From: a virus
IMG/VR virus record: IMGVR_UViG_3300048836_000838
Span: 1-60,508 of that record
Length of the DNA stretch: 60,508 bases
Strand: one strand, 5' to 3'
The position numbers and the translations under genes were made by a program. The notes below the pieces were generated by a model. The model was not told the DNA's origin. It searched no databases and saw nothing but the letters and a program-made list of their open reading frames with translations. This document shows, piece after piece, positions 1 to 60,508 of the stretch (within the stretch, counting starts at the first letter, position 1; the number at the start of each line of letters is the position of its first letter).

Positions 1-127
1 TGCTTGGAAAAATGAGATTGTGGGCAGACGGTCAACGTCTATCACCCCGTCCGTCATCACCTGTACTTTCGTCGCCGCACTCGCAGACCCGGCAATGAGC
101 AGGGCCAGAAGCAAAAATATGAGTCGT
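1..127. repeat. Terminal direct repeat, left copy (circular overlap)
   Basis: Bases 1-127 are identical to 60382-60508. A single reading frame on the minus strand (a signal-peptide fibre protein) runs through the repeat from 132 into the right end of the window, so the two copies are one locus. The length of exactly 127 fits a common assembler k-mer overlap of a circular or circularly permuted genome better than a true packaged terminal repeat, which is inference. Confidence 0.95.
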
Positions 128-132
128 TTCAT
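1..132 (-). CDS. 5' end of the signal-peptide fibre-like protein that continues at the right end of the window
   Basis: The ATG at 132-130 directly follows the TAA stop (135-133) of the upstream gene. The first 44 codons lie here, and the same frame continues at 60381 down to 59410, giving a 367-residue protein across the map junction. Residues 1-19 are a classic Sec signal peptide: Lys-Arg, a run of Leu/Ile/Phe, then Gly-Ser-Ala-Ser-Ala before the likely cleavage site. At the right end of the window the ATG is missing because the window stops three codons into the gene, so this copy defines the true start. Confidence 0.85.
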   Translation of the reverse strand, partial: MKRLIFLLLALLIAGSASAATKVQVMTDGVIDVDRLPTISFFQA

Positions 133-327
133 TTAGCTATCCTTCCCAATCAGGTAGTTTCCGTTTTCGTCTGTGAGGTAGTTGCCGGATTCGTCTATTA
201 GGTAGTATTCGCCAGCGGCGAGCACCGGGAGGCCGGAAGGCCAGGAACCGCCAGCGAGCCACGCGACAGGGTTGAGAACGTCAACCACCGGGTTGAGCAC
301 TGGGTTGCAGATGACCGGATGGATCAT
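133..327 (-). CDS. Small late protein of unknown function with GNYL repeats
   Basis: A 64-residue protein that I do not recognise. Its C-terminal third repeats a Tyr-Leu-x-Asp-Glu-x-Gly-Asn motif (YLIDESGN, then YLTDENGN, then YLIG), a beta-hairpin-like pattern seen at the ends of some phage structural proteins. The N-terminus is rich in Pro, Val and Asn. It sits between a small head/neck-region protein (332-613) and the secreted fibre-like gene starting at 132, with its stop abutting that start, so it is probably translated with them. A structural or fibre-tip role is inference. A GGTAAGG site precedes the ATG. Confidence 0.6.
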   Translation of the reverse strand: MIHPVICNPVLNPVVDVLNPVAWLAGGSWPSGLPVLAAGEYYLIDESGNYLTDENGNYLIGKDS

Positions 328-622: not shown

Positions 623-1033
623 CTAGACAAGGACGCGAGTAATAATGTTCGAGGAAGAAAGCAATCCTTGTAACGAGCGAAGAATGGACGGAAAATTTGT
701 ACGCCCTTCGCCGTTCCCAAAAGTGAGTGCGACGGGGCCGACCGAGAGGCTCTTCAGCTTCTGTTCAGAGAGCGGTGAAAGCGCGTTCGGAGTTGTTAGC
801 TCAATACGAACGGCTTCACAGAGTGCAGAAACGACGCCGCTGGGAGGCTCTTCACCCCAACGCAGCGGCGTCGTGATTTCTTCAGTTGAAGGAACCCATG
901 GCAGTACCTCGATGTAGTCCATTGCGCGAAGCACTGATGCTTCCGTGACTGTGAGTGTGTATCCGCGTGCGCTCAGATGCGCTTGGATATCCTCAAGGGT
1001 CGCGTATGTGTTGGTGCCTACTACGAGTGCCAT
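623..1033 (-). CDS. Head-tail connector/adaptor protein (gp6/DnaT-like)
   Basis: A 136-residue, mostly helical protein starting MALVVGTNTYATLEDIQAHL, an opening typical of phage proteins often annotated as DnaT-like or gp6-like adaptors. These start with a short strand and a Thr-x-x-Asp/Glu-Ala helix. They usually sit under the portal and form the first ring of the neck. The position after capsid and decoration genes supports this. The following Trp, Pro-Leu-Arg-Trp and Pro-Ser-Gly-Val-Val-Ser-Ala-Leu-Cys-Glu-Ala segments also match the family pattern. An AAAGGA site precedes the ATG. Adaptor identity is family-level inference. Confidence 0.65.
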   Translation of the reverse strand: MALVVGTNTYATLEDIQAHLSARGYTLTVTEASVLRAMDYIEVLPWVPSTEEITTPLRWGEEPPSGVVSALCEAVRIELTTPNALSPLSEQKLKSLSVGPVALTFGNGEGRTNFPSILRSLQGLLSSSNIITRVLV

Positions 1034-8170: not shown

Positions 8171-9784
8171 TTACTGCTCCGCTCCTGTTCCTGCACCGAA
8201 CAGTGCATCGAAGCCGGACACAGGGCTCGCTTGGCTGGATACGTTCTCTTTGGACATCATCGCCAGCACATCTTCCCACTGCACATCAGCGGGGATGAGG
8301 CCTTTCTTCTGCGCCTCGCGGAACAAAAGCTCCTTAGGGAGGTTGCCTGCTTGGACCTGGGTAGCGATGAAGCCTTCTCCACGCTCGTCCATTGCGGCTT
8401 CGAGCTTGAGCAGTTCTTCTTCATCCTTCTCGTTGAAGCTAGGACCGAGGATGCCACGACGATACATTTCCTTCCACATAGTCGAGCGCGAGATGTCCTT
8501 GCCCTTGCGGAGTTCAAGGATCGCCTGGTACTCAGCGGCAGAAGCAGACAGGCCATGAGAAGTATTGACCGAAACGTTTGGTGCATCTAGCAGGCCTGGG
8601 GACTTCCAAAGCGTCGTGTAAACAACTGCAAGCTCAAGCGCGTCCTTCAACCCCATCGCCCAGGACTGGAGTGCGCTGGATGCTGTTGCTGTGTCCAGTG
8701 CAGCTCTGGTGGCGGACTCATCACCTGTCGACTGCTTCAGGAGCGGCTCATACGACAACAATGCGATCTGCCCTTCCAGCGCCTTCAACGAATCAGCACC
8801 AGATGCAATCGCCGCCCCAGTATGCTCAACGAACCGAAGATCGCCATGCTCATCCTGGGAGTGGATCATGGCACTTGCTCCCTGCTCAATCTTGCTGGTG
8901 CCTTCCAGGAACAACCGCTTGCCAAACAGAAGAGGGAATCGACTGTAATCGAGAATATGGTCCTGGGAGCTGGTGCTCTGGTAGTGGCGGACGCAAAGGC
9001 GCGCCATGTCGTGGAGCGGCGGAGATGCTCGAAGCGGCCCCTTGCGCTTGGTGTATACAGGGATCAATGGGATGATTGGGATCGACATCTTGAATATCTG
9101 TTCGGATTCGACTGCCCCTGCTTCGGAGCACTGGAACTCATGGCAGCTACCAAGACGGTACACACGCAGAATCTTCTTCTTCTCAAACACGAACAGCGAC
9201 GTCTCGACATCGCGGTACTGAAGAGTGCGCAATTCCACCAGAACGTTGACGCCGTTGATTCGTTCAAACTTCCAGCCGATCACTTCTGCTGCTTTCAGGA
9301 AGATCCAGTAAGGGCGACGAGTGCGCTTCTCCTTCAGCTCTGCTTCCTGGTTAGGGGCTGTGGGGAGGGACGGGAAATCGACCATGATATACGAAATGCC
9401 CTCAGCAATGGCCGCGGAGAAGACCTCCTGCGCGAATACATGGAGGTTGTTGCCTTCCATATCCACATCATCTTCGAATGCAGCCCAATCGTCGCTTGCG
9501 TCTTCGAACTTCACTTCTTTCGAGAACACACGCCCTGACAACGAGTCAACGGTGCGGCTGAACTGATTGAAGAAGGTTGCTGTGTCCAGGCGCTTCTGAT
9601 AGGCCGTGTCGTTCTCAAGCTCTTTCTGCGGAAGGTAGGTCGTGCGGGCAGCACGCAGAGCAGTGATGCCTTCCATCAAATCGCGACAAACGCCGCGCTC
9701 CCTTTCATCAACTGTCCATGCCGGGCACGGGGTTTGGGCAAGGATCGCTTGCTCTTTGGTAATGGTCGTCTGTTCCGTTGCCAT
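8171..9784 (-). CDS. Portal protein (DUF4055-type)
   Basis: The 537-residue protein carries the features of DUF4055 portal proteins: an early Arg-Thr-Tyr-Leu-Pro-Gln (about 47), the AYQKRLDTATFFNQFSRTV helix (about 61-79), Leu-Ser-Gly-Arg-Val-Phe and the beta-strand block ISYIMVDFPSLP near 130. Portals form the dodecameric vertex through which DNA enters and leaves. It lies just downstream of terL and upstream of MuF, the canonical order. The C-terminal 60 residues include Gln-rich, likely flexible sequence. GGAGGATTACGATC places the start firmly at 9784. Confidence 0.85.
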   Translation of the reverse strand: MATEQTTITKEQAILAQTPCPAWTVDERERGVCRDLMEGITALRAARTTYLPQKELENDTAYQKRLDTATFFNQFSRTVDSLSGRVFSKEVKFEDASDDWAAFEDDVDMEGNNLHVFAQEVFSAAIAEGISYIMVDFPSLPTAPNQEAELKEKRTRRPYWIFLKAAEVIGWKFERINGVNVLVELRTLQYRDVETSLFVFEKKKILRVYRLGSCHEFQCSEAGAVESEQIFKMSIPIIPLIPVYTKRKGPLRASPPLHDMARLCVRHYQSTSSQDHILDYSRFPLLFGKRLFLEGTSKIEQGASAMIHSQDEHGDLRFVEHTGAAIASGADSLKALEGQIALLSYEPLLKQSTGDESATRAALDTATASSALQSWAMGLKDALELAVVYTTLWKSPGLLDAPNVSVNTSHGLSASAAEYQAILELRKGKDISRSTMWKEMYRRGILGPSFNEKDEEELLKLEAAMDERGEGFIATQVQAGNLPKELLFREAQKKGLIPADVQWEDVLAMMSKENVSSQASPVSGFDALFGAGTGAEQ

Positions 9785-42181: not shown

Positions 42182-44095
42182 TTATGCCGGGCGCAGGGCG
42201 AGGCTTGCTGCGCACCAAGCGCGGGCGGAGCTTGTTGATGCTACTGTCCAAACTGCTGGATCAATAGCCCCGTCGCCGTCAGTCCAGACTCGATTTGCCA
42301 TGCCGACAGTATACGCATAGCTCCAGCTCCCTCCGCGTATTATGGCATTGCCGAATCCTGTCGGTGCTGCTGGCGACAATGGAGCGCCAGACCCGGCTGA
42401 TACGCAAATTACCACCGCATTGTCAGTTACAGGAGTTATTGCGGGAGGATTGGCGTTTGTATTGCCTGCGCCCGTTGCAGTCTGGATAGGGACATCAAGC
42501 ACGATACTTGCAACGCCTCTAAATGTATATGCAACTGCCGCCGCAGGATAATTATTAACTGTCCCGACAGCGTTTATTTCTGCCGTCGTTTCATCAGCTC
42601 CAACAAATTTGTATGATATCCCGAGGTTTGCATCATAAGTGCCGTTTCCGAAAAGGTCGGAAATTTTTGTCCAACCAGAGGACAAAACCGTCGGGCTGAG
42701 GTCTCCGATGGAAACAAACCCATGAGCTATAAGAACCAAATCACCTGCTTGCGTTCCTGCGGGCAAACTGAGCGTGTACGACGCAGCCGTGCTTTGCTGT
42801 ATATGATTGCTCGATGACCCTATATACGTGATTTCACCAGTACCAACTGGTGCCGCACTAACAGTTACGGTTAATGTGCCCTCGTCGTTTGCCACGCCAT
42901 CAGACACATGATATGATATACTTGTCGTGGCAGTTTCGTCGCCTGTCAGCGAGTCAAAATCTCCGGCTGGGTCAAAAGTCCACGCGCCATCGCTGGCAAT
43001 TGTGAACAAACCACCAGATGAACCTGATACGGCAACGCCAACATTGGATGATGACCCGCCCACCGCAGACACTGACAGTGTATCCCCGTCAGAATCTGTA
43101 TCATTTGTGATCACGTTGCCACTGGTTGTCGTATCAGCCGCAACGGCCCCCGTATCATTTACTGCTACGGGCGCTGCGTTCGCACGGGATACGATAACGG
43201 TTATTTCCGCAGTGGCTTCACTCGTTCCATTATTTGCATGGTAGGTAATGCTTGTCTCGGCAGTATCCAGCACTCCAAGCAACCCAAAGTCACCATCAGG
43301 GTCAAACGACCATGCCCCGTCAGCACTAACTAGGAACAACCCGCCATTATCACCTTCAACCTCCACTCCAATGTTTGACGCAAAGCCATTGACCGCCACA
43401 ACGGTAAGGCCAGGCTCGTCATTTGCAAGCACGTTGCCACTTGTCCCGACTAAATGCGTGGTCGCCCCTGTATCATCTGCAACTATCGGCAACTCGGGCG
43501 CAACATAAGCCTCGGGAGCAATCGCCACATGCCGCCGGATAACTGCCTGTTCTGGCATTCCGTCTGGGGTGGCCGTCCATGTGATAGACTCGACCTGTCC
43601 AACCACCGCCACACCGTCCACGGGCACACTGGCCACGTCACCCAGGCTAGCCCCGAGCCCGAGCGGACAGGTCGCGGTCACGTCATCTCGGTAATGCGCG
43701 GCCTCATCTATCGCAGCTGTTGCTCGGGCCAGCCCCATGTCATCATCACCATAGACAGGGTGGATCTCGTCTGGGAGGTCCACTGCTGGATTGATACGGA
43801 TCTCGCGGTGTGCCTCAGTACCTACTGTCGTCAGGAGCAAGTGCCAGCCAAGGTCAGCGTCAACCATCTCAATAATTTGTCCGCTTTGCGGGGTCAGGAT
43901 ACACGGTTGCTCTGTGCCGACCAGGGCCGCCCCTGTCGCCACCAAAATATTGTCCTCATCAAAAAGCAGGACGCCGGAGGACGCCGCACTTGGAAAGAGG
44001 TGTAGTGTATAAGCAACATTTGGCGCAACATTCCACCCGCTAATGAGGGTGGCGTCATCTTGGGCCGTCGCGTTGACTCGGTGCGCTCTAATCAC
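42182..44095 (-). CDS. Tail adhesion protein with two cadherin/VCBS-like domains
   Basis: A 637-residue protein. Residues 1-200 are a beta-rich tail-associated domain. Residues about 205-303 and 308-413 are two tandem VCBS/cadherin-like repeats, each with an Asp-Asp/Asn-Asp-Thr-Gly opening, Gly-Asn-Val ... Asn-Asp and Gly-Ala-Trp-Ser/Thr-Phe-Asp-Pro. The C-terminal domain (about 418-637) ends Trp-Cys-Ala-Ala-Ser-Leu-Ala-Leu-Arg-Pro, seen at the ends of phage fibres. Calcium-binding Asp/Asn residues suggest a stiff adhesin that projects to the host surface. The start overlaps the preceding stop (ATGA). Confidence 0.75.
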   Translation of the reverse strand: MIRAHRVNATAQDDATLISGWNVAPNVAYTLHLFPSAASSGVLLFDEDNILVATGAALVGTEQPCILTPQSGQIIEMVDADLGWHLLLTTVGTEAHREIRINPAVDLPDEIHPVYGDDDMGLARATAAIDEAAHYRDDVTATCPLGLGASLGDVASVPVDGVAVVGQVESITWTATPDGMPEQAVIRRHVAIAPEAYVAPELPIVADDTGATTHLVGTSGNVLANDEPGLTVVAVNGFASNIGVEVEGDNGGLFLVSADGAWSFDPDGDFGLLGVLDTAETSITYHANNGTSEATAEITVIVSRANAAPVAVNDTGAVAADTTTSGNVITNDTDSDGDTLSVSAVGGSSSNVGVAVSGSSGGLFTIASDGAWTFDPAGDFDSLTGDETATTSISYHVSDGVANDEGTLTVTVSAAPVGTGEITYIGSSSNHIQQSTAASYTLSLPAGTQAGDLVLIAHGFVSIGDLSPTVLSSGWTKISDLFGNGTYDANLGISYKFVGADETTAEINAVGTVNNYPAAAVAYTFRGVASIVLDVPIQTATGAGNTNANPPAITPVTDNAVVICVSAGSGAPLSPAAPTGFGNAIIRGGSWSYAYTVGMANRVWTDGDGAIDPAVWTVASTSSARAWCAASLALRPA

Positions 44096-44550
44096 AGGGC
44101 CTCCTTGCTGACCATATCAACACCCCCGCAGACGCATGTGTATCGGTGACGGTAGCCGAGTTTTCCGGCGGCACATTTTGGGCAAACGGCGGTGTGTTGA
44201 AGGGCGTCACCGCATTTTGGACAGACCATTTTAGACAGGGTTTCAGACCCGACCACGCTTCTAGTTTCGGAGTCCGGTTGCCGCTTTTTTACCACATCAA
44301 AGGCTTGAGCCAACCGCTCTGCGTGAACATCCGGGCGCAAAGCCCATGACCGCTCTCCCATGGATATGGCCACCCGGCCATCTGACATCAAACCCGGAGC
44401 AGCTTGAACAGGCTCAAAGCCTGACGCCACCATTTGTCTGGCCAACGTGTTTTTCCGTCCGAGCGCATCGCGCATCCTAGCAATATACGCACGCCTTACA
44501 TCAATTTCTGGACATCGCGACATCAGTGACAATAATTTTTGTAGCATCAT
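44092..44550 (-). CDS. Hypothetical tail-region protein with a double zinc ribbon
   Basis: A 152-residue protein. The first two thirds are helical (RRAYIARMRDALGRKNTLAR). The C-terminus has Cys-Pro-Lys-Cys-Gly-Asp, Cys-Pro-Lys-Cys-Ala-Ala and Cys-Val-Cys, a typical zinc ribbon pair (about 112-142). A cytoplasmic zinc-ribbon protein among tail-tip genes is odd. It may be a chaperone for the neighbouring Cys-rich hub or a regulator. It overlaps both neighbours by 4 nt (ATGA). Confidence 0.65.
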   Translation of the reverse strand: MMLQKLLSLMSRCPEIDVRRAYIARMRDALGRKNTLARQMVASGFEPVQAAPGLMSDGRVAISMGERSWALRPDVHAERLAQAFDVVKKRQPDSETRSVVGSETLSKMVCPKCGDALQHTAVCPKCAAGKLGYRHRYTCVCGGVDMVSKEAL

Positions 44551-47500
44551 ATTACATATACCTTGAATCTAAATAATTTACATTCAAAGCCCGGCGTCTG
44601 GCTACCTGACGGCCCATCCCATCTTACAAAAAACACTCCGTCCACAGGTGAATTGCTTTCAACATTCCAGTTATTTGTGCATGGTGCGGAATGTATATAC
44701 GTGCTTTCGCTGTCGTCGGTTGTGACAACGCCACATGCGTCCACGTTAGGATGACGCACATACAGCCCGCGAGGGTCGCCAGACCCGGATGTTGGAGCGT
44801 CTACGCATGACGGATATGTCTGCACTGTCATAGCCGCAGATGACCCGCACGGTCCGTCAAAACTGACAGTGTACGATGCGCCGTCTCCAGCATCGCCCGG
44901 CATTGTTGCCGTGACCCCATTTCCGAGTTCGTTTTCAAACGGTGTGCCGGGCAATGTTCCCGTGTATTTCGCCCCAGGGCCGAGGTCGTGATAATAGATG
45001 GCTGTTTCACCGGGGTCTAAAATATCATCTCCGACAACCGACCCAACATAATCCTTTTTCGGATTCGTGACCCCCACAGTCCCGCAAACCCGCCCGCCAT
45101 ACGTCACAGTCACCACGCCCTCGCACCCGCCCGCCTTCATCCGGCAGACAAACCCGGTGTCGTAGGGCGCATTGCGGACAAACTCCATGTCGCCCGAGCA
45201 GACGCAAGCCGCGCCTGTCATGCCAGCCGAGGGCACATAGATGGACTCGACGCCTGGGTTGAGTGTGTCCACGCCAGAAACAGAGCACGGCGGGAAATCA
45301 ACCGTCGCCTCACAGCATGTATCCTCAGTCTCGCCATAGCAGACCTTGATCGTAAACGGGCCCTCGCCTCCGGTGGGCATGACCGCCTTGTAGCCGCCTG
45401 TTGGGGTGCGCTCGGTAATGGTAAGCGCCCCGCCCATGAATTGCCCGTTGTTGCCCTTGCCGTCTGTCCATGTGCCCTCGACGCCGGGGCTCAATGTCGC
45501 TGGCCCGTCTAGGACGCATTGGGTGCATTTTTCATCACGCGCTGCCGCACATGCTGCCATGCACGTTGCGTAGGTCATGCCGCCCTCGGTTGAGAGCCGC
45601 CCGGTTGAGCGCAGGGCCGCGCATAATTCATCGCAGGTGCAGGTTCCAGGGCACTCGCCCACAAAAACCTCTGCGTGATTATCGGCGGTGATTACGGGTG
45701 TTCTGGCATTGATTGAATCAGGGCCGCACCCGGTAGCCGTGATTTCTTCCTCTTCTGGCTCCAGCCACGATGTTGGGTCATGGTCGCCAACTTCGCCGTC
45801 GCCAATGACCTCGTCTGGTATTTCGTCGGGGTCACTCGATCCGGGGTTGACCGCCCTGCAATCCCTGGCCGTGATCGAAAGCTGCCCGGTCCCGCCGTCT
45901 TCCGATCCGTCTTCGACCCTGGCCGTTATGATGGCAGAGCAGCCGGGTTGCGACCCCCAAACTGCCTCATAGGTGCACTCCATGGGCTGATCGACGGGCA
46001 GGACTGCGATGTCATCCACGTCGAGAGTGACGACCTTCCCGGCGTGGGAGTCATAATGATTGACCGCGTATCCGTCCCGCGTGCAAACGGGTGTATTCAT
46101 GGGCGTGCGGGTCAGTGTGACCTGGGGCGTCATTATGCCGCCGATGTCGGTGTGATAAACGAGGACAACCTCGCTGACCGGCTCGTACCCGCTCGGCACG
46201 GCTGTGGGCATCCACGCCACCAGGGCCGTGCCGCCTGCCACATAGGTGACTGTGACTTGGGTTCCTGGCAGGAGGGCCGAATTGGAGAGTATGACCGTTT
46301 GCCCGCTGTGCGAGGCATAAAGATCGGAGCCCGGAGTCTCGGTCAGAACCACGCTCGGGGTCGTGCCATCAACCGGGATGCCGGAAAGGCGGACCTCAAC
46401 CGCGCCGCCCCAAATGGATGTGCGAAGGGTTTCAGTGATTGTGCGCGGGGCCAGCGTCTTGCGCGTGGAGGATAGCGACCCGCACCCTATCAGGCCAAAG
46501 GTTGCCGCGCCTATGCCTGCGCCGCCAAACATGCTCGCCTTGAGAAGGATACTGACGGTGTCGCCCAAGCACGGGCTTGATGGACTTGCGTCGAGGCTGA
46601 CCTGTGTTGCGCAGGCCTTTGGGTTGCTCTGGTGCAGGGTCGCAAAGCCCTGTGCCCCGGCCACAGACGCCAGAACCGTAACATCGCCAGGGATGCGGCC
46701 AGCCGTCCACGTCGCGGGTGCACCCTTGACGACATAATCGACGACAAGTGCCTGATCGTAATAATCCAGCGGGGCCGAAAAAGTGATGACGCGGCCATCC
46801 ACGGACCCGCCGCGCTCGGTGTAGTAGTCACGCGCCCGCCTGACATCGCGCCGCCTGTAAACGCCAACCACGGATTCCGCTGGCAGGTCCAGGGTCAGGT
46901 GCGTGTAGTCGTCGGCCTGGTGGACCTCACCCTGTCGTATCACCTCGGCTGTCTGGCTCGTGGCCCCGGACATCATGCCGGATGATGCGCTCCATGTGAC
47001 CTCTGTGCCCAGGGCCACGGGCAGGCCGTCAGCGCCAAGGACAACAGCGATCAGCCGTACCTCAGAAACGCCATCGGCGGCAACGCAAGCATCCTCGTCA
47101 GCGATGGGCACAACCTGCACGGACAGGCCCGCCACGGAGGCGTCACCGGACACAAGGATGCGGTTGCCAAAGTCGGGCACGGTGCGGTCCACCGACTCAA
47201 CATTGATCTCGTCAGCGTCCAGGGTAACGTCTGGCGTTCCGTAGGTGTAGAGTCTGGGAGCCACGGTCAGGGTGCCATCGATCTCCGGCCAAAGGATCTG
47301 GCCAGACTTGGTCGCCAGGTCGCGGATGATCTCGGCAGGGGTCTGGTCGCTCACGGCGTAGCAATATTGGCAGACGTCAAAATCGTTGGTCACGTTGACG
47401 GTCACGCCACACAATGCAGCCACCTCGGCAATGATGCCCGCCACGGTGTTGCCGCCTGGCCACTGCTTGCTGATCTTTTGCGCCCAGGGAGTTGTCGCCC

Positions 47501-47798
47501 GGGCGGAAGCACTGCGCCCCCATAGAGAGGAGGTCCTTGTATTCAGGTCCTGATTCTGGCGGACCTGCTCGAAAAAATAAGCGCCCTTGCTGACCCATGC
47601 CCCGTCTATCCACGCCTCTACTTCGATCGCAAGTTCTTGTGGGACTCGAGGAATGACAAGTCCATCCAAAACAGAGCGGTCCGCTAATTCAACGGAGCAC
47701 TCCCCGCAAAGGTAATCGGCCATGAATCGCGTAGAGACCCCGGAGACCTTCGTGGTAATGTCTTCCCCAAAAAAGAAAACGCGGAATGGACTAGCCAT
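44547..47798 (-). CDS. Cys-rich tail-tip/baseplate hub-like protein with repeated Ig-like domains
   Basis: A 1083-residue protein. Residues about 1-210 look like a tail hub (TPAEIIRDLATKSGQILWPE near 150-170). Ig-like segments follow, then an Asp/Glu/Pro-rich linker with many Cys near 690-750. Around residues 766, 848 and 928 a motif of Leu-x-Pro-Gly-Val/Glu-Glu is repeated about every 80 residues (LSPGVEG, LNPGVES, LDPGETA), marking three related domains. Over twenty Cys suggest disulfides or metal sites, uncommon in cytoplasm-assembled tails. It is encoded after tape measure and a tip protein, the usual hub position. Confidence 0.72.
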   Translation of the reverse strand: MASPFRVFFFGEDITTKVSGVSTRFMADYLCGECSVELADRSVLDGLVIPRVPQELAIEVEAWIDGAWVSKGAYFFEQVRQNQDLNTRTSSLWGRSASARATTPWAQKISKQWPGGNTVAGIIAEVAALCGVTVNVTNDFDVCQYCYAVSDQTPAEIIRDLATKSGQILWPEIDGTLTVAPRLYTYGTPDVTLDADEINVESVDRTVPDFGNRILVSGDASVAGLSVQVVPIADEDACVAADGVSEVRLIAVVLGADGLPVALGTEVTWSASSGMMSGATSQTAEVIRQGEVHQADDYTHLTLDLPAESVVGVYRRRDVRRARDYYTERGGSVDGRVITFSAPLDYYDQALVVDYVVKGAPATWTAGRIPGDVTVLASVAGAQGFATLHQSNPKACATQVSLDASPSSPCLGDTVSILLKASMFGGAGIGAATFGLIGCGSLSSTRKTLAPRTITETLRTSIWGGAVEVRLSGIPVDGTTPSVVLTETPGSDLYASHSGQTVILSNSALLPGTQVTVTYVAGGTALVAWMPTAVPSGYEPVSEVVLVYHTDIGGIMTPQVTLTRTPMNTPVCTRDGYAVNHYDSHAGKVVTLDVDDIAVLPVDQPMECTYEAVWGSQPGCSAIITARVEDGSEDGGTGQLSITARDCRAVNPGSSDPDEIPDEVIGDGEVGDHDPTSWLEPEEEEITATGCGPDSINARTPVITADNHAEVFVGECPGTCTCDELCAALRSTGRLSTEGGMTYATCMAACAAARDEKCTQCVLDGPATLSPGVEGTWTDGKGNNGQFMGGALTITERTPTGGYKAVMPTGGEGPFTIKVCYGETEDTCCEATVDFPPCSVSGVDTLNPGVESIYVPSAGMTGAACVCSGDMEFVRNAPYDTGFVCRMKAGGCEGVVTVTYGGRVCGTVGVTNPKKDYVGSVVGDDILDPGETAIYYHDLGPGAKYTGTLPGTPFENELGNGVTATMPGDAGDGASYTVSFDGPCGSSAAMTVQTYPSCVDAPTSGSGDPRGLYVRHPNVDACGVVTTDDSESTYIHSAPCTNNWNVESNSPVDGVFFVRWDGPSGSQTPGFECKLFRFKVYVI

Positions 47799-54165: not shown

Positions 54166-54563
54166 AGCGAAATCCCCGCTTTTACATCCGCCACAGCTTT
54201 CTCAACGAAAAAGACACCGGGGCGGCGGCTAGTTCCACTATTGAGCGGAACGATGTAACCGACGTTATTGTAGACCACAATGTAATCCGATCCTTTTACG
54301 ATGGCCGGCGTCTTAGGCTTTGGGTAAATGGGCTTGCGGCCTTTTCTCCATCCCTCAGGCACGGGAATTTCGCCAGGGGCCCAGTCATCCTTGCCATTGA
54401 TGCCGATAGACCATCCGGCCCGTGCACGCCCCGTATCAATGGGGGTTCCCTTAATGAGTGCACCCCAGAGATCCATCGCCACGGTACGCTGTATCTGGTC
54501 AATGTACTCCAGTAACGGCGCTTCGAGCGTGTCCAGGTTGAACTCAATATTGAAGGTGATCAT
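54162..54563 (-). CDS. Neck/tail completion protein, HK97 gp10-like
   Basis: A 133-residue protein with the family's Thr-Pro-Ile-Asp-Thr-Gly-Arg-Ala-Arg-Ala-Gly-Trp (about 40-51) and a later Tyr-Asn-Asn-Val-Gly-Tyr-Ile-Val-Pro-Leu-Asn-Ser-Gly-Thr-Ser (about 96-110), both diagnostic of HK97 gp10-type proteins at the head-tail interface. GGAGAAGGG precedes ATG 54563. It overlaps the previous gene's stop by 4 nt. Confidence 0.85.
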   Translation of the reverse strand: MITFNIEFNLDTLEAPLLEYIDQIQRTVAMDLWGALIKGTPIDTGRARAGWSIGINGKDDWAPGEIPVPEGWRKGRKPIYPKPKTPAIVKGSDYIVVYNNVGYIVPLNSGTSRRPGVFFVEKAVADVKAGISL

Positions 54564-54922
54564 CCCTTCTCCCGCATCTGGAGCTCATAAAGGAGCCCAG
54601 CAGAATTCTTGCCTGACTTCACTTCCCAGTCTTTCCCGTCCCAGGCAATAACAGCACCGACTGGCGGCATGACGGACACTGTGGTCGCGTCAACGAAAAT
54701 TGGAACGTCGCCAGCCTGGATGCCGTTCTGCTGCTGAAACGTACTATAGTTTGATCGGATAGCAGTGAATGTTTCGGTTTCGGTTGTTTCCGTGCTTTTG
54801 CCGAGGATCGGGTCATAAACAGAGCCCGTCACCTTCGTCCACACACACGCGATAACTGTGCCAGGGACAAGACTTGCAACAATACCGAACGCGCTTGAAA
54901 CTGTGCTAGAAAGATCTGCCAC
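54560..54922 (-). CDS. Neck/head-closure protein, hypothetical
   Basis: A 120-residue beta-rich protein (TGSVYDPILGKSTETTETETFTAI, later VSVMPPVGAVIAWDGKDWEV), as in phage neck proteins such as head-tail stopper types. AAGGAGGCGAG directly precedes GTG 54922, which fixes the start inside the end of the upstream phospholipase-like gene (17-nt overlap). The long in-frame extension to 55042 lacks a ribosome site. Family is inferred from position before the gp10-like gene. Confidence 0.6.
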   Translation of the reverse strand: MADLSSTVSSAFGIVASLVPGTVIACVWTKVTGSVYDPILGKSTETTETETFTAIRSNYSTFQQQNGIQAGDVPIFVDATTVSVMPPVGAVIAWDGKDWEVKSGKNSAGLLYELQMREKG

Positions 54923-55379
54923 CCTCGCCTCCTTGGGAATGGGTAATTGCGTACCTAACACCGATCGGACATTCTGCTCTATTCGCTGCCCAGTACTCCT
55001 CACTGTACGTCGTAGCTGAAACAGCATACATGAACTTGGCACTTGATATGTATCGCGGCATCATGCTGTACCATGTGCTGTGGTGCCAAATCCAGAGAAT
55101 CAAGTTCTGGGCAAAGATACCATCAGCAATTATTTCGTCTTCTTCACAACAGCAACGCTCGTACATATGATCATGAATGTAGCAGAGATACGAAATCCTA
55201 AGGCCTAAAATTGACTGCGGAATTGCTTTCGAAAGACCGCGCGGGCCGCATCCATTATAGTAGAACGACAGCTCATCATGCGGAATAGCCAAGAAGGAGC
55301 GGGGTGCCCACAGCAGACAATTACTCTCCGAATGGCGGAAGAGGATGATGTCGTCAACTGGGTGTCCTGGAAACGGCAT
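54906..55379 (-). CDS. Phospholipase A2-like protein
   Basis: A 157-residue protein. Tyr-Tyr-Asn-Gly-Cys-Gly-Pro-Arg-Gly-Leu (40-49) matches the calcium-binding loop of secreted/viral PLA2, and Cys66-Tyr-Ile-His69-Asp70-x2-Tyr73 matches the catalytic His-Asp motif, followed by Ala-Asp86-Gly-Ile-Phe. Cys76-78 and others could form disulfides. This layout is seen in parvovirus VP1 and bacterial PLA2 domains, which cut phospholipids. No signal peptide is visible. It lies next to endolysin and membrane-protein genes, suggesting lysis or membrane entry. Start at ATG 55379 (AGGAG 10 nt before). Confidence 0.7.
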   Translation of the reverse strand: MPFPGHPVDDIILFRHSESNCLLWAPRSFLAIPHDELSFYYNGCGPRGLSKAIPQSILGLRISYLCYIHDHMYERCCCEEDEIIADGIFAQNLILWIWHHSTWYSMMPRYISSAKFMYAVSATTYSEEYWAANRAECPIGVRYAITHSQGGEGGRSF

Positions 55380-55386
55380 GCCTTCA

Positions 55387-55605
55387 CTACTCCTGGTACT
55401 TCTTTCGTTTAATCGCCGCCTCAATCGTGATTAGGCTTTTCATATCTTCAAATGCTTCTGTAGCGATGCCCGGGGCTGGAGCGTATTTCGCAAACATGTC
55501 GTCGAGTATCAAAATCTGTCGGGGTGTGACCCACTATGACATGCCGGCCATATAAGCGTCAAATGGGTTGATCTTCCCCCGAGTATGGTATGGTTGATCA
55601 CTCAT
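55387..55605 (-). pseudogene. Small reading frame split by an in-frame amber codon
   Basis: From ATG 55605 the frame encodes 23 residues ending Tyr-Met-Ala-Gly-Met-Ser, then TAG (55536-55534), and continues in the same frame for 48 residues (Trp-Val-Thr-Pro-Arg, then a helix EDMKSLITIEAAIKRKKYQE) to TAG 55389-55387. The two parts read as one 72-codon gene, as if a nonsense change or read-through site divides it. Its start overlaps the preceding stop (ATGA). Either a broken gene, two tiny genes or amber read-through is possible. Confidence 0.5.
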
Positions 55606-55760
55606 CCCTTCGGCACCATCACACCGGCAACTGCGCCGACGCATGTTCCTGTGTGAACAGGCGCTGTACCGATGTACGCGCAAATCGACATCTCGGCGAC
55701 TGCTACGAGCAGCAGACCGATGATTGCGATACTGATGTTCTCTTGGCAAAGCCCTGTCAT
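55602..55760 (-). CDS. Small single-pass membrane protein, possible holin or lysis factor
   Basis: A 52-residue protein with one long hydrophobic stretch (IAIIGLLLVAVAEMSICAYIGTA, about 9-31) and a Gly/Val-rich tail. GGAGGTC 3 nt before ATG 55760 is a very strong site. Its start overlaps the endolysin stop (ATGA). A single membrane segment next to an endolysin fits a holin-like or pinholin-like role, but short phage membrane proteins with other roles are common. Confidence 0.6.
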   Translation of the reverse strand: MTGLCQENISIAIIGLLLVAVAEMSICAYIGTAPVHTGTCVGAVAGVMVPKG

Positions 55761-56305
55761 ATGACCTCCATCAAGCTCCGCACACGATTGATCCATCCGT
55801 CTAAGTACTTCCGTGCTACTTTGCCTTGCTTGCCGCGAAATCCGTAATCAGCAAGTCGTAATGCACAAATGGTAAATGCAAGCGCACCAGCATCGGCGCG
55901 TTTAACTGCTTCGAGGGTCTGGCCCCCGATGACACCGTCCACAACAACATACCGGGAACGCGCAAGGCGGCAGAGCGCTTCCTGAAGCAGTTCGACGCCC
56001 CCCAGAACATCATCGCCCTTGCGGCCTGTGCCCATGTTGATAACCGCGTCAACCGTTGCCTCTCGAACACGCTCAGGCAAGGAGTTCCAAAGCGGCATGT
56101 ACTTCTCATAGTAAAACTCTGAAACAGCTTCCTCAAAACCAGGACCAGAAGTGATCCCACGATCAACAAACTGCCAGACGCGTGCATGCGGGTTGTGCTT
56201 TCGAGCGATGCCCCATGCAGTTTGACCCCCGGGGTCTTCCGGATCATGATGGGCTTTCCGCCCTTCGTGATCCATTAACCAAGAAAAAAATTGTTCCCAG
56301 GTCAT
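55757..56305 (-). CDS. Endolysin, GH108-type N-acetylmuramidase
   Basis: A 182-residue lysin. The GH108 core has the catalytic Glu14 in His-Glu-Gly, then Asp-Pro-Gly-Gly-Gln-Thr-Ala-Trp-Gly-Ile (about 24-33), an Asn-Met-Gly-Thr-Gly stretch and the Pfam PG_binding_3-like C-terminal half with Val-Asp-Gly-Val-Ile-Gly (about 122-127). It would cleave the glycan backbone at lysis. No signal peptide is present, so it needs a holin. ATG 56305 is preceded by GGGTGAG. Confidence 0.88.
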   Translation of the reverse strand: MTWEQFFSWLMDHEGRKAHHDPEDPGGQTAWGIARKHNPHARVWQFVDRGITSGPGFEEAVSEFYYEKYMPLWNSLPERVREATVDAVINMGTGRKGDDVLGGVELLQEALCRLARSRYVVVDGVIGGQTLEAVKRADAGALAFTICALRLADYGFRGKQGKVARKYLDGWINRVRSLMEVI

Positions 56306-56308
56306 TGC

Positions 56309-56701
56309 TCACCCCTTTAGTCCGTTCTTCACGCCGCCCTGGCCGTTGTTCATGTTGGCAACCATCATCAGTATGCGGTCCATCTTGTCGTCCTGCCTGC
56401 GCATCCACTCGAGGGTCTCGCGCTGGTAGGTCCCACTGCGATCATAGCACTCTCTGCGGCACGCAGAGCAGTCCGCCTTGATCACGGCCTGGCTCTGCAG
56501 ATCGGCCTGCTTCTGGTACAGCGTGTCAATCTTGGCAGACAGGATCTGGATGTCCCCGGAAATTTCACTTATCTTTGCGTCCATGGTGGCTATGTTTCTC
56601 CCGATGCTCCACTTTAAGATCCCGAAAGCCCCGAGGGCCGTGGCGCCTCCTATTGACACCCCCATCGTGACCACTTGAAACAGGCTGATGCTCATTTCCA
56701 C
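56309..56701 (-). CDS. Membrane-anchored coiled-coil protein, lysis-associated
   Basis: A 130-residue protein. One membrane helix (about residues 5-30: VVTMGVSIGGATALGAFGILKW) is followed by a coiled coil (about 38-72, MDAKISEISGDIQILSAKIDTL) and a Cys-x-x-Cys (DCSACRREC, about 77-85). AAGGAG lies 6 nt before GTG 56701, and ATG 56695 has poorer spacing, so GTG is chosen. The N-in membrane helix plus coiled coil, encoded just upstream of the endolysin, fits a holin or spanin-like partner. It is not a classical holin. Confidence 0.65.
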   Translation of the reverse strand: MEMSISLFQVVTMGVSIGGATALGAFGILKWSIGRNIATMDAKISEISGDIQILSAKIDTLYQKQADLQSQAVIKADCSACRRECYDRSGTYQRETLEWMRRQDDKMDRILMMVANMNNGQGGVKNGLKG

Positions 56702-56743: not shown

Positions 56744-59413
56744 TCACTGCACCCTCAACACACTGTCCCCCACGCGCAGGAGGTGCGAGCCTGTGCGCAG
56801 GATGGGGCCGGAGGTTGCGGGGGCTTCTGGGTCTGGTGCTGGTTCTTCGGGGTCGGGCGTGCCTGGATCGCCGGGGTCAACCGGGATACCGCCGCTTTCA
56901 TCCGTCCACGCAAGCAAATATTGCCCGTCTGTCTCAAGCACTGTTCGCGTGCCCTCAAGCGGTTCGCCTTCGTTGCCCTGAGAATCCACAGGGGTAATGA
57001 GGTACTGCGTTGACCCATCCGAAGCGCCAAGCCAATCCAGATATTCTTTTTCGGCTGTCGCCGGGATGGACGCGATACGCATTGCCTGTGTTGCGATTGG
57101 TGTCTCTCCGTCTGCTGCATAAACATTGTAGTAACGTGTGATTTCAGGTTGAAATGTCGTGCAAAAATTACTCTTTCCTTTCGGGTCGGCAGGATACGCG
57201 GCGGTCTGTGTTCCTGCGCTGGAATACACGTTGGAGAGCGCGCGTGATTCAAGGCCAGACCACTCAACACTTGTCACGGCGTAATGCCATGTGCCAGCGT
57301 CGGGGGTATCTGAGATTTCCCAGTATGGTGCTCCGGTCCAGTCACCAGTTGCAAAATCGTACCGCTCAAAAATTGTTGCGTTTACAGCGGCAACAGGTTC
57401 CCATCCTGTTGATCCATCCGCACTACGCCAAAGCCGAAATTCTTTCGTCTCGCGGGGTGGAGGCGGGTTGTCCGTGTCTTCATCAGGCCATCCGCGATGC
57501 GTATATCCACGGGGGTTGGCTTGATCTAAGCGCCAATCAAAGCGAATTGTGTTTGTTCCTGCGTTTGACGTGACCTGTGTGATTTCAGGGGGATGAGGAT
57601 ACGCAGCGACGGCGTATGAAATACTTGCAAAGGAGCCGTCATTAGCAGGCGTTGAGTCTTCGTAGTACCCGGAGTTGAACATGATTGTGGTGAACGCAAC
57701 CTTTGTCCCGTCTGGTGACTGCGACGGCCTTGGTAATGATGTGTAATCAACAGCATGTGCTATGTGATATGTGTCGCCGGGCAACCACGAGTCAGATAAT
57801 CCCCACGTTGCTGACGTAGCATTATTTGATGTTATTGCGCTTTGTTGCTTGGTTCGCATGTTGCGCAACATTTTGCCGACGAGCGCATTTTCAGTCCAAT
57901 TCCTGTTTGCATCGACAATGGTTGTCGCGGATGTAAGCGTATTTTCTCCGAACAAATCTTTTGCAACATCTACAATTTCATCTGGCGCACGATAATTATC
58001 TTTACCAACAACGCCTGTTTTTTTATAGTTGTTTCCAATAATTAAGTTTGTCACCCCAAAAGTGCCTACTGGGTAATCTGTCCATCCTGTCCAACTATTA
58101 TGCCCTACAATATAATCTTTGTGCGCTAAATAATTACTGTTTGTTGCGTTAAACCATTCTGGGTTTGCAAGGTTGTTGTGTAAATCCAGAATTACATGCC
58201 CAGGGCAACCGTTTTCACCTGTTCTTATGTATGTTGTAGGGTCGGTTGCAGGATAAATTTCATCATTACAATCATGTGACGAGTCTCCGAGAACATAATG
58301 TCCCCACCTGTCGAATGATGGATGCCCCATATATCCGTTGTCATAGTCATTGTGTGGCAGGTTGTTCACCGATGCGGCGTTGTCAGACCATGCCCTTATC
58401 TGGTCGTCGCCATAACTATCGCCGTCCCAATCAGACCACACCGGCCCGCCATCTGCTGCCGTGCCGTTTAGCGCCATTGCAAAATATCCCTGTATTGTGC
58501 CGCATGATCCGAAATCAGTGTAATGCGCGAAAAACAACGGTGTGTCGCCGTTTATTAAAGCAGAAGACGATGATCTAAACCCAATTTCACACTCAGGACT
58601 TAAATTAAACTGCGGGTCTTCTGTCGGGCCAATTCCCCTGTACGCACCCCATTCATTCACAACTGTTTTTTCATTGAGATCAACAAAATATAGCTTTGTA
58701 CAGTTTACAGGATATGCGCCGTCCCAATCAGATCTTTCGCCTGATTGTAAAACAATCATGCCGTCATCTGCCGTAATCGGGTCTTTAATTGTTGAATAAA
58801 GTCTTTCGTTCCCGGTATCAACAGTATTCATAAACACTGTTTTTGTGCATGTATTTTCGCTGTCAACGACAATTTTCAATAATGCGCCAGGGAAGTCTGC
58901 ATTTCCAAATATTCCGTCGGACGGATATATGTACGCGCTCCGCTCTGTGTGGAGCCAGTTTGCAAACTCAACGCTTGTACCTGATCCGGTTGCAATACGG
59001 AGTTTTGACCCGTCAGCAGACATGTGCCAGCGCCCATTACTAATCACATCTTTCTGCTGATTTACCGGGACACGGTAGTTTGAAATGGAGCGAAAAGCTA
59101 ATGTCCCACCATCTCCTGACCATGCTTGCGTCGAATACTCCTTTGAATATGCGTCCATCGACATAGGCTTATACGTCATCCTCCAAACTTCAGCCCCGGT
59201 TGAATTATCTGTATAGCAAAGCGTTTCCGGTTGCCAAAAATAGGGCGAAACATCAGATTCATTTGGGCTAAATGTTGCTGTGGCGTATCTTTGCTTTCTC
59301 GCCATCACTTCGTTAAGCCCGTGAACAGTCCTCGCATCTTGCACGGCAACTGCACTCTGGGGGATGATAAGCGCGGCTATGATGTACGCGAGAATTAAAT
59401 ATTTAGGTATCAT
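56744..59413 (-). CDS. Secreted or fibre protein with signal peptide, propeller-like and FN3-like domains
   Basis: An 889-residue protein. Residues 1-24 look like a Sec signal peptide (Ile-Pro-Lys, hydrophobic core, Ala-Val-Ala before Val-Gln). Residues about 50-590 have repeated Trp/Gly/Asp strands (SGDGGTLAFRS, later HPSFDRWGHYVLG), as in TolB/oligogalacturonate-lyase-type propellers, then an FN3-like domain (about 615-735), a short C-terminal domain, a Pro/Asp/Glu-rich linker and a Leu-Arg-x-Gly repeat at the end. A signal on a late tail-region protein is unusual. AT-rich codons at 57.8-59.4 kb suggest acquisition. Depolymerase or exported enzyme is a guess. Confidence 0.65.
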   Translation of the reverse strand: MIPKYLILAYIIAALIIPQSAVAVQDARTVHGLNEVMARKQRYATATFSPNESDVSPYFWQPETLCYTDNSTGAEVWRMTYKPMSMDAYSKEYSTQAWSGDGGTLAFRSISNYRVPVNQQKDVISNGRWHMSADGSKLRIATGSGTSVEFANWLHTERSAYIYPSDGIFGNADFPGALLKIVVDSENTCTKTVFMNTVDTGNERLYSTIKDPITADDGMIVLQSGERSDWDGAYPVNCTKLYFVDLNEKTVVNEWGAYRGIGPTEDPQFNLSPECEIGFRSSSSALINGDTPLFFAHYTDFGSCGTIQGYFAMALNGTAADGGPVWSDWDGDSYGDDQIRAWSDNAASVNNLPHNDYDNGYMGHPSFDRWGHYVLGDSSHDCNDEIYPATDPTTYIRTGENGCPGHVILDLHNNLANPEWFNATNSNYLAHKDYIVGHNSWTGWTDYPVGTFGVTNLIIGNNYKKTGVVGKDNYRAPDEIVDVAKDLFGENTLTSATTIVDANRNWTENALVGKMLRNMRTKQQSAITSNNATSATWGLSDSWLPGDTYHIAHAVDYTSLPRPSQSPDGTKVAFTTIMFNSGYYEDSTPANDGSFASISYAVAAYPHPPEITQVTSNAGTNTIRFDWRLDQANPRGYTHRGWPDEDTDNPPPPRETKEFRLWRSADGSTGWEPVAAVNATIFERYDFATGDWTGAPYWEISDTPDAGTWHYAVTSVEWSGLESRALSNVYSSAGTQTAAYPADPKGKSNFCTTFQPEITRYYNVYAADGETPIATQAMRIASIPATAEKEYLDWLGASDGSTQYLITPVDSQGNEGEPLEGTRTVLETDGQYLLAWTDESGGIPVDPGDPGTPDPEEPAPDPEAPATSGPILRTGSHLLRVGDSVLRVQ

Positions 59414-60508
59414 AATCCATTAGCCTTAAAATCATCTGCGTAAGCCGCTGCGCCACTGAATGACAACCCACAATAGTTCCCTTCGCTGTAATTTGTTTTT
59501 GTTACAGTTGCCATGTCTGATTCATTCGTGTCTTCAAAATCGCCGTCATCATTCCAATCAACTTTAACTGTTATCGTTGTTCCAACTATAGACGCATACA
59601 TAAGATGCCCAATGCCGCTCCCCCAAGTTTTTCCACCAGTAAAATTAATAATAGATAAATTCGATAATGTGCTTCCAGAAAACGTACCTACTGACATGCG
59701 GTCACTAAACGCCCCAGAAGGGTAAACATAATATCCTTCTGCCCCGTTTGTGCGCAATACTACACCAGAGGTAGCAGCCCCAGATTTAAACGAATAGACT
59801 TGAGCTTCTTGATCTGCGCTAGCTAGGCTTTCCTCATGATATACACTTCCGATTCCGCCAGCGTCGAAAACGCCGCCTACTACAGAAAAAGTACCTGCTA
59901 TAGCCGTGTAATCAGCGGACGAGTCGGAACTAAAATCATCATCAATCGCCCATTCTGATGCACTCGCCGCAGTCGTCACCACAAACGCATCACTCACGCC
60001 CCCAATCACCACCGTAGCATTGACCGCCGTGCCATCACTCGCGCTCGACGTGACAACCGCCCTAACCGAGTCACCACTTGCAACTGTGCCGTTCGTGCTC
60101 ACTGCCGTGGCGTTGTTGACGGAGTATTTCGCGCTTGCGTCACCAGACACGCTGATCGCGGCAGGCCAGTTGATACCGGACACCGTGATGGGGTCGGAGG
60201 TGTAGGGCGTGGAGATTGTGGCATTGGTCACGTCCGTGAAGCTGAAGGCTTCCGGGGTTGTGTCCCATTCAACGAGGCTGGTGGCGTTGAACTCGTAGAC
60301 GCCGAGAGCACCCGCGACTTTCAACTGGTTCGTGGCGTTGTTCCACCAGATTTGACCTAACTCAGGGGATGGGGGGTCGGTTGCTTGGAAAAATGAGATT
60401 GTGGGCAGACGGTCAACGTCTATCACCCCGTCCGTCATCACCTGTACTTTCGTCGCCGCACTCGCAGACCCGGCAATGAGCAGGGCCAGAAGCAAAAATA
60501 TGAGTCGT
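59410..60508 (-). CDS. Signal-peptide fibre-like protein, 3' part (5' end duplicated at 1-132)
   Basis: The full protein is 367 residues, starting at 132 on the circular map and ending at TGA 59412-59410. After the signal peptide it has an Ile-Trp-Trp-Asn-Asn-Ala-Thr-Asn-Gln segment (about 55-63), an Ig-like domain (about 85-180) and a ConA/lectin-like sandwich (about 185-367) rich in Ser/Gly/Tyr with Asp-Asp-Asp. Such domains bind glycans. The ATGA overlap with the 889-residue gene below links the two. A secreted structure or host-range fibre is inferred. Confidence 0.7.
   Translation of the reverse strand, partial: RLIFLLLALLIAGSASAATKVQVMTDGVIDVDRLPTISFFQATDPPSPELGQIWWNNATNQLKVAGALGVYEFNATSLVEWDTTPEAFSFTDVTNATISTPYTSDPITVSGINWPAAISVSGDASAKYSVNNATAVSTNGTVASGDSVRAVVTSSASDGTAVNATVVIGGVSDAFVVTTAASASEWAIDDDFSSDSSADYTAIAGTFSVVGGVFDAGGIGSVYHEESLASADQEAQVYSFKSGAATSGVVLRTNGAEGYYVYPSGAFSDRMSVGTFSGSTLSNLSIINFTGGKTWGSGIGHLMYASIVGTTITVKVDWNDDGDFEDTNESDMATVTKTNYSEGNYCGLSFSGAAAYADDFKANGL
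60382..60508. repeat. Terminal direct repeat, right copy (circular overlap)
   Basis: Identical to bases 1-127. See the left copy for the circular-overlap interpretation. Confidence 0.95.

Follow-up and report, generated by a model that had tools for sequence, protein, structure and literature searches.

The stretch of viral DNA analyzed here (60,508 nucleotides, the window throughout; IMG/VR record IMGVR_UViG_3300048836_000838) carries in its late gene run two overlapping genes, whose products of 367 and 889 amino acids (aa) each begin with a predicted Sec signal peptide. An exact 127-bp terminal repeat (window 1-127 and 60382-60508) closes the 60,508-base record into a circle of 60,381 bp, so the 367-aa gene, though cut in the linear record, is complete. 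The 889-aa gene lies downstream and overlaps it by 4 bp (ATGA). A preliminary description made from the letters alone had given both lengths and the overlap, and these hold, with 367 residues counted across the join. The pair is laid out as follows, open reading frame being abbreviated to ORF.

59410-60508, minus strand, with the remainder at 128-132: 367-aa gene; the first interval lacks only the initial five bases (ORF list and reading across the join)
128-132, minus strand: start of the 367-aa gene, with the ATG at window bases 130-132 (reading across the join)
60457-60508, minus strand, plus the first bases at 128-132: predicted signal peptide of the 367-aa protein, residues 1-19 (top score of 207 ORFs)
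59965-60267, minus strand: Ig-like domain of the 367-aa protein, common to exported bacterial multidomain proteins (matches in 6 of 198 genomes)
59413-59952, minus strand: C-terminal domain of the 367-aa protein, putatively lectin-like, shared with a partner protein in contig L052 (34%, E 1e-16)
56744-59413, minus strand: 889-aa gene (ORF list)
59345-59413, minus strand: predicted signal peptide of the 889-aa protein, residues 1-23 (second-best score of 207 ORFs)
57599-59332, minus strand: propeller-like region, a putative fold, about residues 28-605 (PD40-type motifs; poor model)
56894-57598, minus strand: two tandem FN3 domains, about residues 606-840 (model, Foldseek, profile match)
56747-56893, minus strand: proline-rich linker and short repeats ILRTGSH LLRVGDS VLRV (read from the translation)

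Both signal peptides stand out in a crude scan of our own, which looks for a charged n-region, a hydrophobic h-region and an AxA-type cleavage site in six-frame ORFs of at least 100 aa. The scan flagged 9 of the 207 window ORFs; the 367- and 889-aa proteins hold the two top scores (5.62 and 4.88), and the remaining seven score 4.13 or less. Read across the circular join, the 367-aa protein begins with MKRLIFLLLALLIAGSASA, after which the mature protein would start with ATK. Neither protein shows a lipobox or an anchor. For comparison, the scan flagged three of 109 annotated proteins of four isolated phages (all 64 proteins of Cellulophaga phage phi12:1 and, from the remaining three phages, 20 of 70, 12 of 82 and 13 of 65 listed features), none of them a fiber or tail gene, and the two long proteins of the window's tail end (44547-47798 and 42182-44095) were not flagged either. 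By the same scan, a signal-like peptide is present in each of the four phage copies of the 889-aa family with a complete N-terminus, and the bacterial copies start with one as judged by eye. Predicted export of both proteins through Sec is well supported by these features, and the two signal-bearing proteins of the preliminary description are real.

The fold of the 889-aa protein is only partly accessible. Pfam, PHROGs and NCBIfam give no match above threshold for the protein, and no FN3 match appears in Pfam. The SPDGTKVAF motif is of the PD40 type and is held in common with PL22 and TolB-like propellers, but PD40 scores of 12.9 and 16.6 bits fall below the 20.9 cut-off and a profile self-comparison of the family yields only a 13-column repeat; any resemblance to those propellers beyond the motif is our presumption. 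An AlphaFold2 (AF2) model from a six-row alignment has a pLDDT of 40.8, with values under 50 in the propeller-like region. Its FN3 part is partly confident, and the Foldseek matches of this part to FN3 pairs reach E values as low as 3.5e-4; it also gives a profile match to 5z06 (E 7e-4). Foldseek was run on the 889-aa model only and read for FN3, the other rows (phage T1 tail tip, pectate lyases) not being used. The AF2 model of the 367-aa protein, from a two-row alignment, has a pLDDT of 34.7. Because both models are poor, the tandem FN3 is the sole fold that we claim: of the propeller- and FN3-like parts seen in the preliminary description the second is borne out, and the structure predictions it proposed leave the propeller and lectin folds not proven. 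Among nine aligned copies, H364 and D368 are kept in eight and Q565, S566 and D568 in all nine, a hint that the 889-aa protein may have a working site. Short closing repeats of 7-9 residues occur in this protein, in a 64-aa ORF (YLIDESGN YLTDENGN YLIGKDS) and at the C-terminus of a beta-helix protein in contig L058 (L058:3185-4987); the bacterial homologues are without them.

The 367-aa protein has no PHROG match, and its C-terminal domain has no Pfam match. Its N-terminus looks fiber-like by motif. A weak match of this protein to contig L002 was rejected, as it comes down to a DWNDDGDF motif and the L002 protein is an unrelated tail protein.

Direct searches with the 889-aa sequence, whole or in part, returned nothing from viral contigs, genome contigs, phages, plasmids or the PDB. 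Relatives were found through the motif pattern RPxxSPDGTKVAF combined with local tblastn, and two of the 17 pattern loci, both bacterial, were true relatives. A search with the single sequence matched two genomes among 277 from the Pelobacter class. Among 395 genomes of the Pelobacter phylum, a profile built from nine relatives matched four over the full length (G001, G209, G425 and G419) and another 34 in part, mostly at the FN3 end. Identity of the 889-aa protein to three bacterial copies is 42% (G001, Pelobacter sp.), 36% and 32%. All four full-length bacterial copies lie among exopolysaccharide (EPS) genes, and an exosortase is near in G001, G209 and G425. The exosortases of G001 and G209 score 219.7 and 214.4 bits in NCBIfam, over the exosortase A cut-off of 208, and NCBIfam names PrsK and PrsR in G001. 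Neighbors of the G419 copy include a polymerase-like gene and an AMP-ligase that shares 65% identity with its counterpart in the G209 EPS cluster. A Firestonebacteria genome (G002) has one copy with a type-IX secretion tail and a second beside GH123-like and acetyl-xylan-esterase-like genes. The secreted proteins of the EPS loci resemble the 889-aa protein in full length, signal peptide, propeller-like region and FN3 pair, whereas the phage copy differs in its place in a late gene run, its phage-type C-terminal tail and an extra stretch at about residues 470-550 (57764-58006), which none of the other eight aligned copies has. The window copy stands outside any EPS or exosortase locus, among head, neck and lysis genes.

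On the minus strand, terminase, portal, head morphogenesis, scaffold, capsid and Ad1 genes precede an insertion of eight genes, encoding in order a 93-aa, a 64-aa, the 367-aa, the 889-aa and a 130-aa protein, a GH108 endolysin, and a further 64-aa and a 172-aa protein; Hc1, Neck1 and the tail terminator follow, and after them the major tail protein and the tape measure protein. Mendokysei, with a related capsid (38.8% identity), has no such insertion: its capsid gene is followed by the connector, neck and terminator genes. With the pair between Ad1 and Hc1, beside the endolysin, and the tail genes later, the locus is an insertion of export and lysis genes in the head-neck run; the label of tail/fiber region in the preliminary description was wrong here. 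The neighboring features are:

623-1033, minus strand: Ad1 head-tail adaptor, upstream border of the insertion (phrog_477, E 3.6e-12)
133-327, minus strand: 64-aa ORF, whose end immediately precedes the start codon of the 367-aa gene
56309-56701, minus strand: 130-aa membrane/coiled-coil protein, a possible holin
55757-56305, minus strand: GH108 endolysin with a peptidoglycan-binding domain (PF05838, 1.9e-12; phrog_315, 7.5e-22)
54560-55042, minus strand: Hc1 head closure, downstream border of the insertion (phrog_161, 1.4e-12)

The 172-aa ORF (54906-55424) has a Cys/HDHMYER stretch and no Pfam or PHROG match; the stretch resembles phospholipase A2-like phage proteins. A search for a host through the window capsid protein matched none of 274 Desulfuromonadia genomes.

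Profile scans of IMG/VR add four viral contigs with relatives of the 889-aa protein (L052, L053, L057 and L058), and those that are N-terminally complete are 28-38% identical to the window copy. In three of them (L052, L058 and L057) the relative stands, as in the window, beside at least one other signal-bearing protein, but the partners differ. The closest arrangement is that of L052, where a signal-peptide protein (starting at 8283-8286) overlaps a 790-aa relative by one base and matches the C-terminus of the 367-aa protein with its own. Identity of the 790-aa relative to the 889-aa protein is 54% in the FN3 part and 24% in the propeller-like one. The signal-peptide protein and the 790-aa relative are the only ones of 28 locus ORFs that the scan flags. 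Similar-looking membrane and enzyme genes lie nearby; the enzyme matches only a family of unknown function, and the membrane proteins (130 aa in the window, 126 aa in L052) are alike in layout and not in sequence.

In L058, the scan flags 6 of the 19 listed ORFs, among them five genes in a row that encode a 160-aa protein, a beta-helix protein (PF13229, E 3.5e-14), a 985-aa protein, a 247-aa protein and the 889-aa relative; a membrane/coiled-coil protein and an endolysin lie downstream of this cassette. The 985-aa protein (L058:4999-7956) contains tail-fiber repeats, matches tail-fiber families (E 4e-12) and over part of its length has matches in 171 phage records, many annotated as tail fibers; its N-terminal part gave one weak match in 297 genomes. 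In L057, signal-peptide proteins of 331, 431 and 893 aa stand in a row between a capsid/protease gene and Hc1. The 431-aa protein (L057:7186-8481) has a weak beta-helix match, a C-terminal hydrophobic stretch and RKRR, and is possibly like a membrane-anchored or sorted surface protein. The L053 relative is cut by the contig end; none of 21 ORFs there passes the scan, and a 192-aa neighbor is signal-like by eye. The cassettes occupy a tail-fiber site in L052 and L058 and a head-neck site in the window and L057. The window tape measure protein found no match in L052, L053, L057 or L058, and the window capsid none in L052 and L053, both searches being run with no positive control.

Phage and bacterial copies are mixed in the family tree. 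In a ten-copy tree, a branch supported at 100/99 splits the window, L053, G001, G425 and G002 copies from those of L058, L052, L057, G209 and G419; an earlier nine-copy tree also groups L058, L052, L057 and G209. The nine- and ten-copy trees need three and four changes of phage/bacterium label, two of which are forced by supported branches, and neither tree supports placing all phage copies in one clade. Resolution is poor at most inner branches, and several end branches are long. By sequence, common descent of the 889-aa gene and bacterial exported proteins is clear.

These observations can be read as a late, Sec-exported, glycan-facing module of two genes with a proposed action on host EPS, a reading to which we give about even credence. 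It is favored because of the signal peptides, the packed late run with the endolysin adjoining, the relatives in EPS loci and the recurrence in other phages. Late in infection, both proteins would leave the cytoplasm through the host Sec machinery and reach the periplasm or a place beyond it, where the 889-aa protein, with its propeller-like region and two FN3 domains, might bind or cut host EPS, and the 367-aa protein, with a fiber-like N-terminus, an Ig-like domain and a lectin-like C-terminus, might bind a surface glycan. The likely gain would be that progeny escape the EPS matrix and re-adsorb less often to debris or to sibling cells. We also count in favor that an endolysin adjoins the pair in the window and another lies downstream of the cassette in L058, that the window tail proteins carry no signal peptide and that a partner in L057 may be membrane-anchored. 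The preliminary description had offered exported enzymes, surface proteins or fibers: export is upheld by the sequence, and a link to surface glycans is supported by the company the relatives keep, namely exosortase/EPS loci and signal-bearing beta-helix or fiber-like neighbors.

Several results weigh against this reading. No catalytic domain is recognised in either protein by Pfam, and the propeller-like and lectin-like folds that it invokes are the unproven ones. Membership of the 889-aa protein in PL22 was rejected, given no Pfam match in the window protein and PF14583 in none of the three homologue-bearing bacterial genomes (one of 14 in the control). The 19 kb read around the G419 copy holds no exosortase. 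We found no family name for these EPS-locus secreted propeller-like/FN3 proteins. Of the four other viral records only L052 yielded a 367-like protein, which brings the instances of the exact pair to two, the window included.

The position of the L058 and L052 cassettes directly after the tail genes, at the tail-fiber site, also counts against a module directed at EPS and favors its strongest rival, in which the two proteins are fibers or fiber accessories exported through Sec that join the virions outside the cytoplasm at or after lysis. We hold this to be possible and on balance unlikely. Fibers added outside the cell, as the preliminary description had suggested, gained support from these sites and from the signal-bearing 985-aa protein with its tail-fiber matches, set within a run of five signal-peptide genes. 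The fiber-like look of the 367-aa N-terminus points the same way, as does phage phi12:1 (L064:26368-28799), where a collagen-type fiber and a 370-aa partner lie between head-tail joining and tail-component genes, at a position comparable to that of the window pair; that fiber and its partner, however, have no signal peptides. Phage tail fibers share the modular build of the window proteins, but true tail-fiber repeats occur in the L058 neighbor only, and the window proteins differ in having Sec signal peptides and no PHROG match. The 889-aa family is common to bacterial EPS loci and not to known virion proteins. Phage tails assemble in the cytoplasm, where fibers are normally built as well, so an exported fiber would meet virions only at lysis. 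The literature searched offers no precedent for Sec-exported fibers: neither signal-peptide tail fibers nor such a module are described in the portions available of PMC5723332, PMC3556154, PMC6116005 and PMC10599522, and a full-text search covering few subscription journals gave no description of signal-bearing fiber cassettes or of the 889-aa family. Available portions of two of these papers report Sec-exported phage lysis proteins as already known (PMC6116005) and, for two Bacteroides phages, two and one predicted signal peptides not assigned to fibers (PMC5723332).

Display on the infected cell, chiefly to block superinfection by hiding or altering the receptor, is a distinctly less probable explanation. 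Export signals, glycan-linked relatives and the possibly membrane-anchored L057 partner agree with it. Superinfection exclusion proteins, too, are exported by host Sec, and the exclusion lipoproteins Llp and Cor set a precedent. Known exclusion proteins are small, however, whereas both window proteins are large, multi-domain and late, and neither has the lipobox or anchor that was looked for. Likewise, Sec-exported endolysins share the export route, while the window proteins are much larger and multi-domain and have no lysis domain.

That the signal peptides are relics or membrane tethers of proteins acting in the cytoplasm or on virions without export is very improbable: ancestry shared with bacterial exported proteins means that a signal could be inherited, and export is predicted solely by a crude script and by eye, but the signals are kept in all four N-terminally complete phage copies despite their low identity to the window copy, and neighboring genes of other origin carry signals as well.

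The proposed sugar-directed export module, taken with the cassettes of other phages, suggests that some phages send fiber-like, sugar-directed proteins out of the infected cell. A bolder reading, which we rate as less likely than not, is that some tailed phages, probably of EPS-producing bacteria, export whole sets of fiber-type and glycan-directed proteins through Sec, for virion decoration, receptor masking or matrix clearing outside the cytoplasm, and that these modules trade genes with bacterial exosortase/EPS loci. The recurrence of a signal-bearing, fiber-like or glycan-type cassette in phages without detected tape measure similarity suggests a second, secreted arm of the interaction between phages and the host surface. 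It offers a testable link between phages and bacterial exosortase/EPS loci, and describing the 889-aa family would allow phage annotation to be interpreted alongside EPS annotation.

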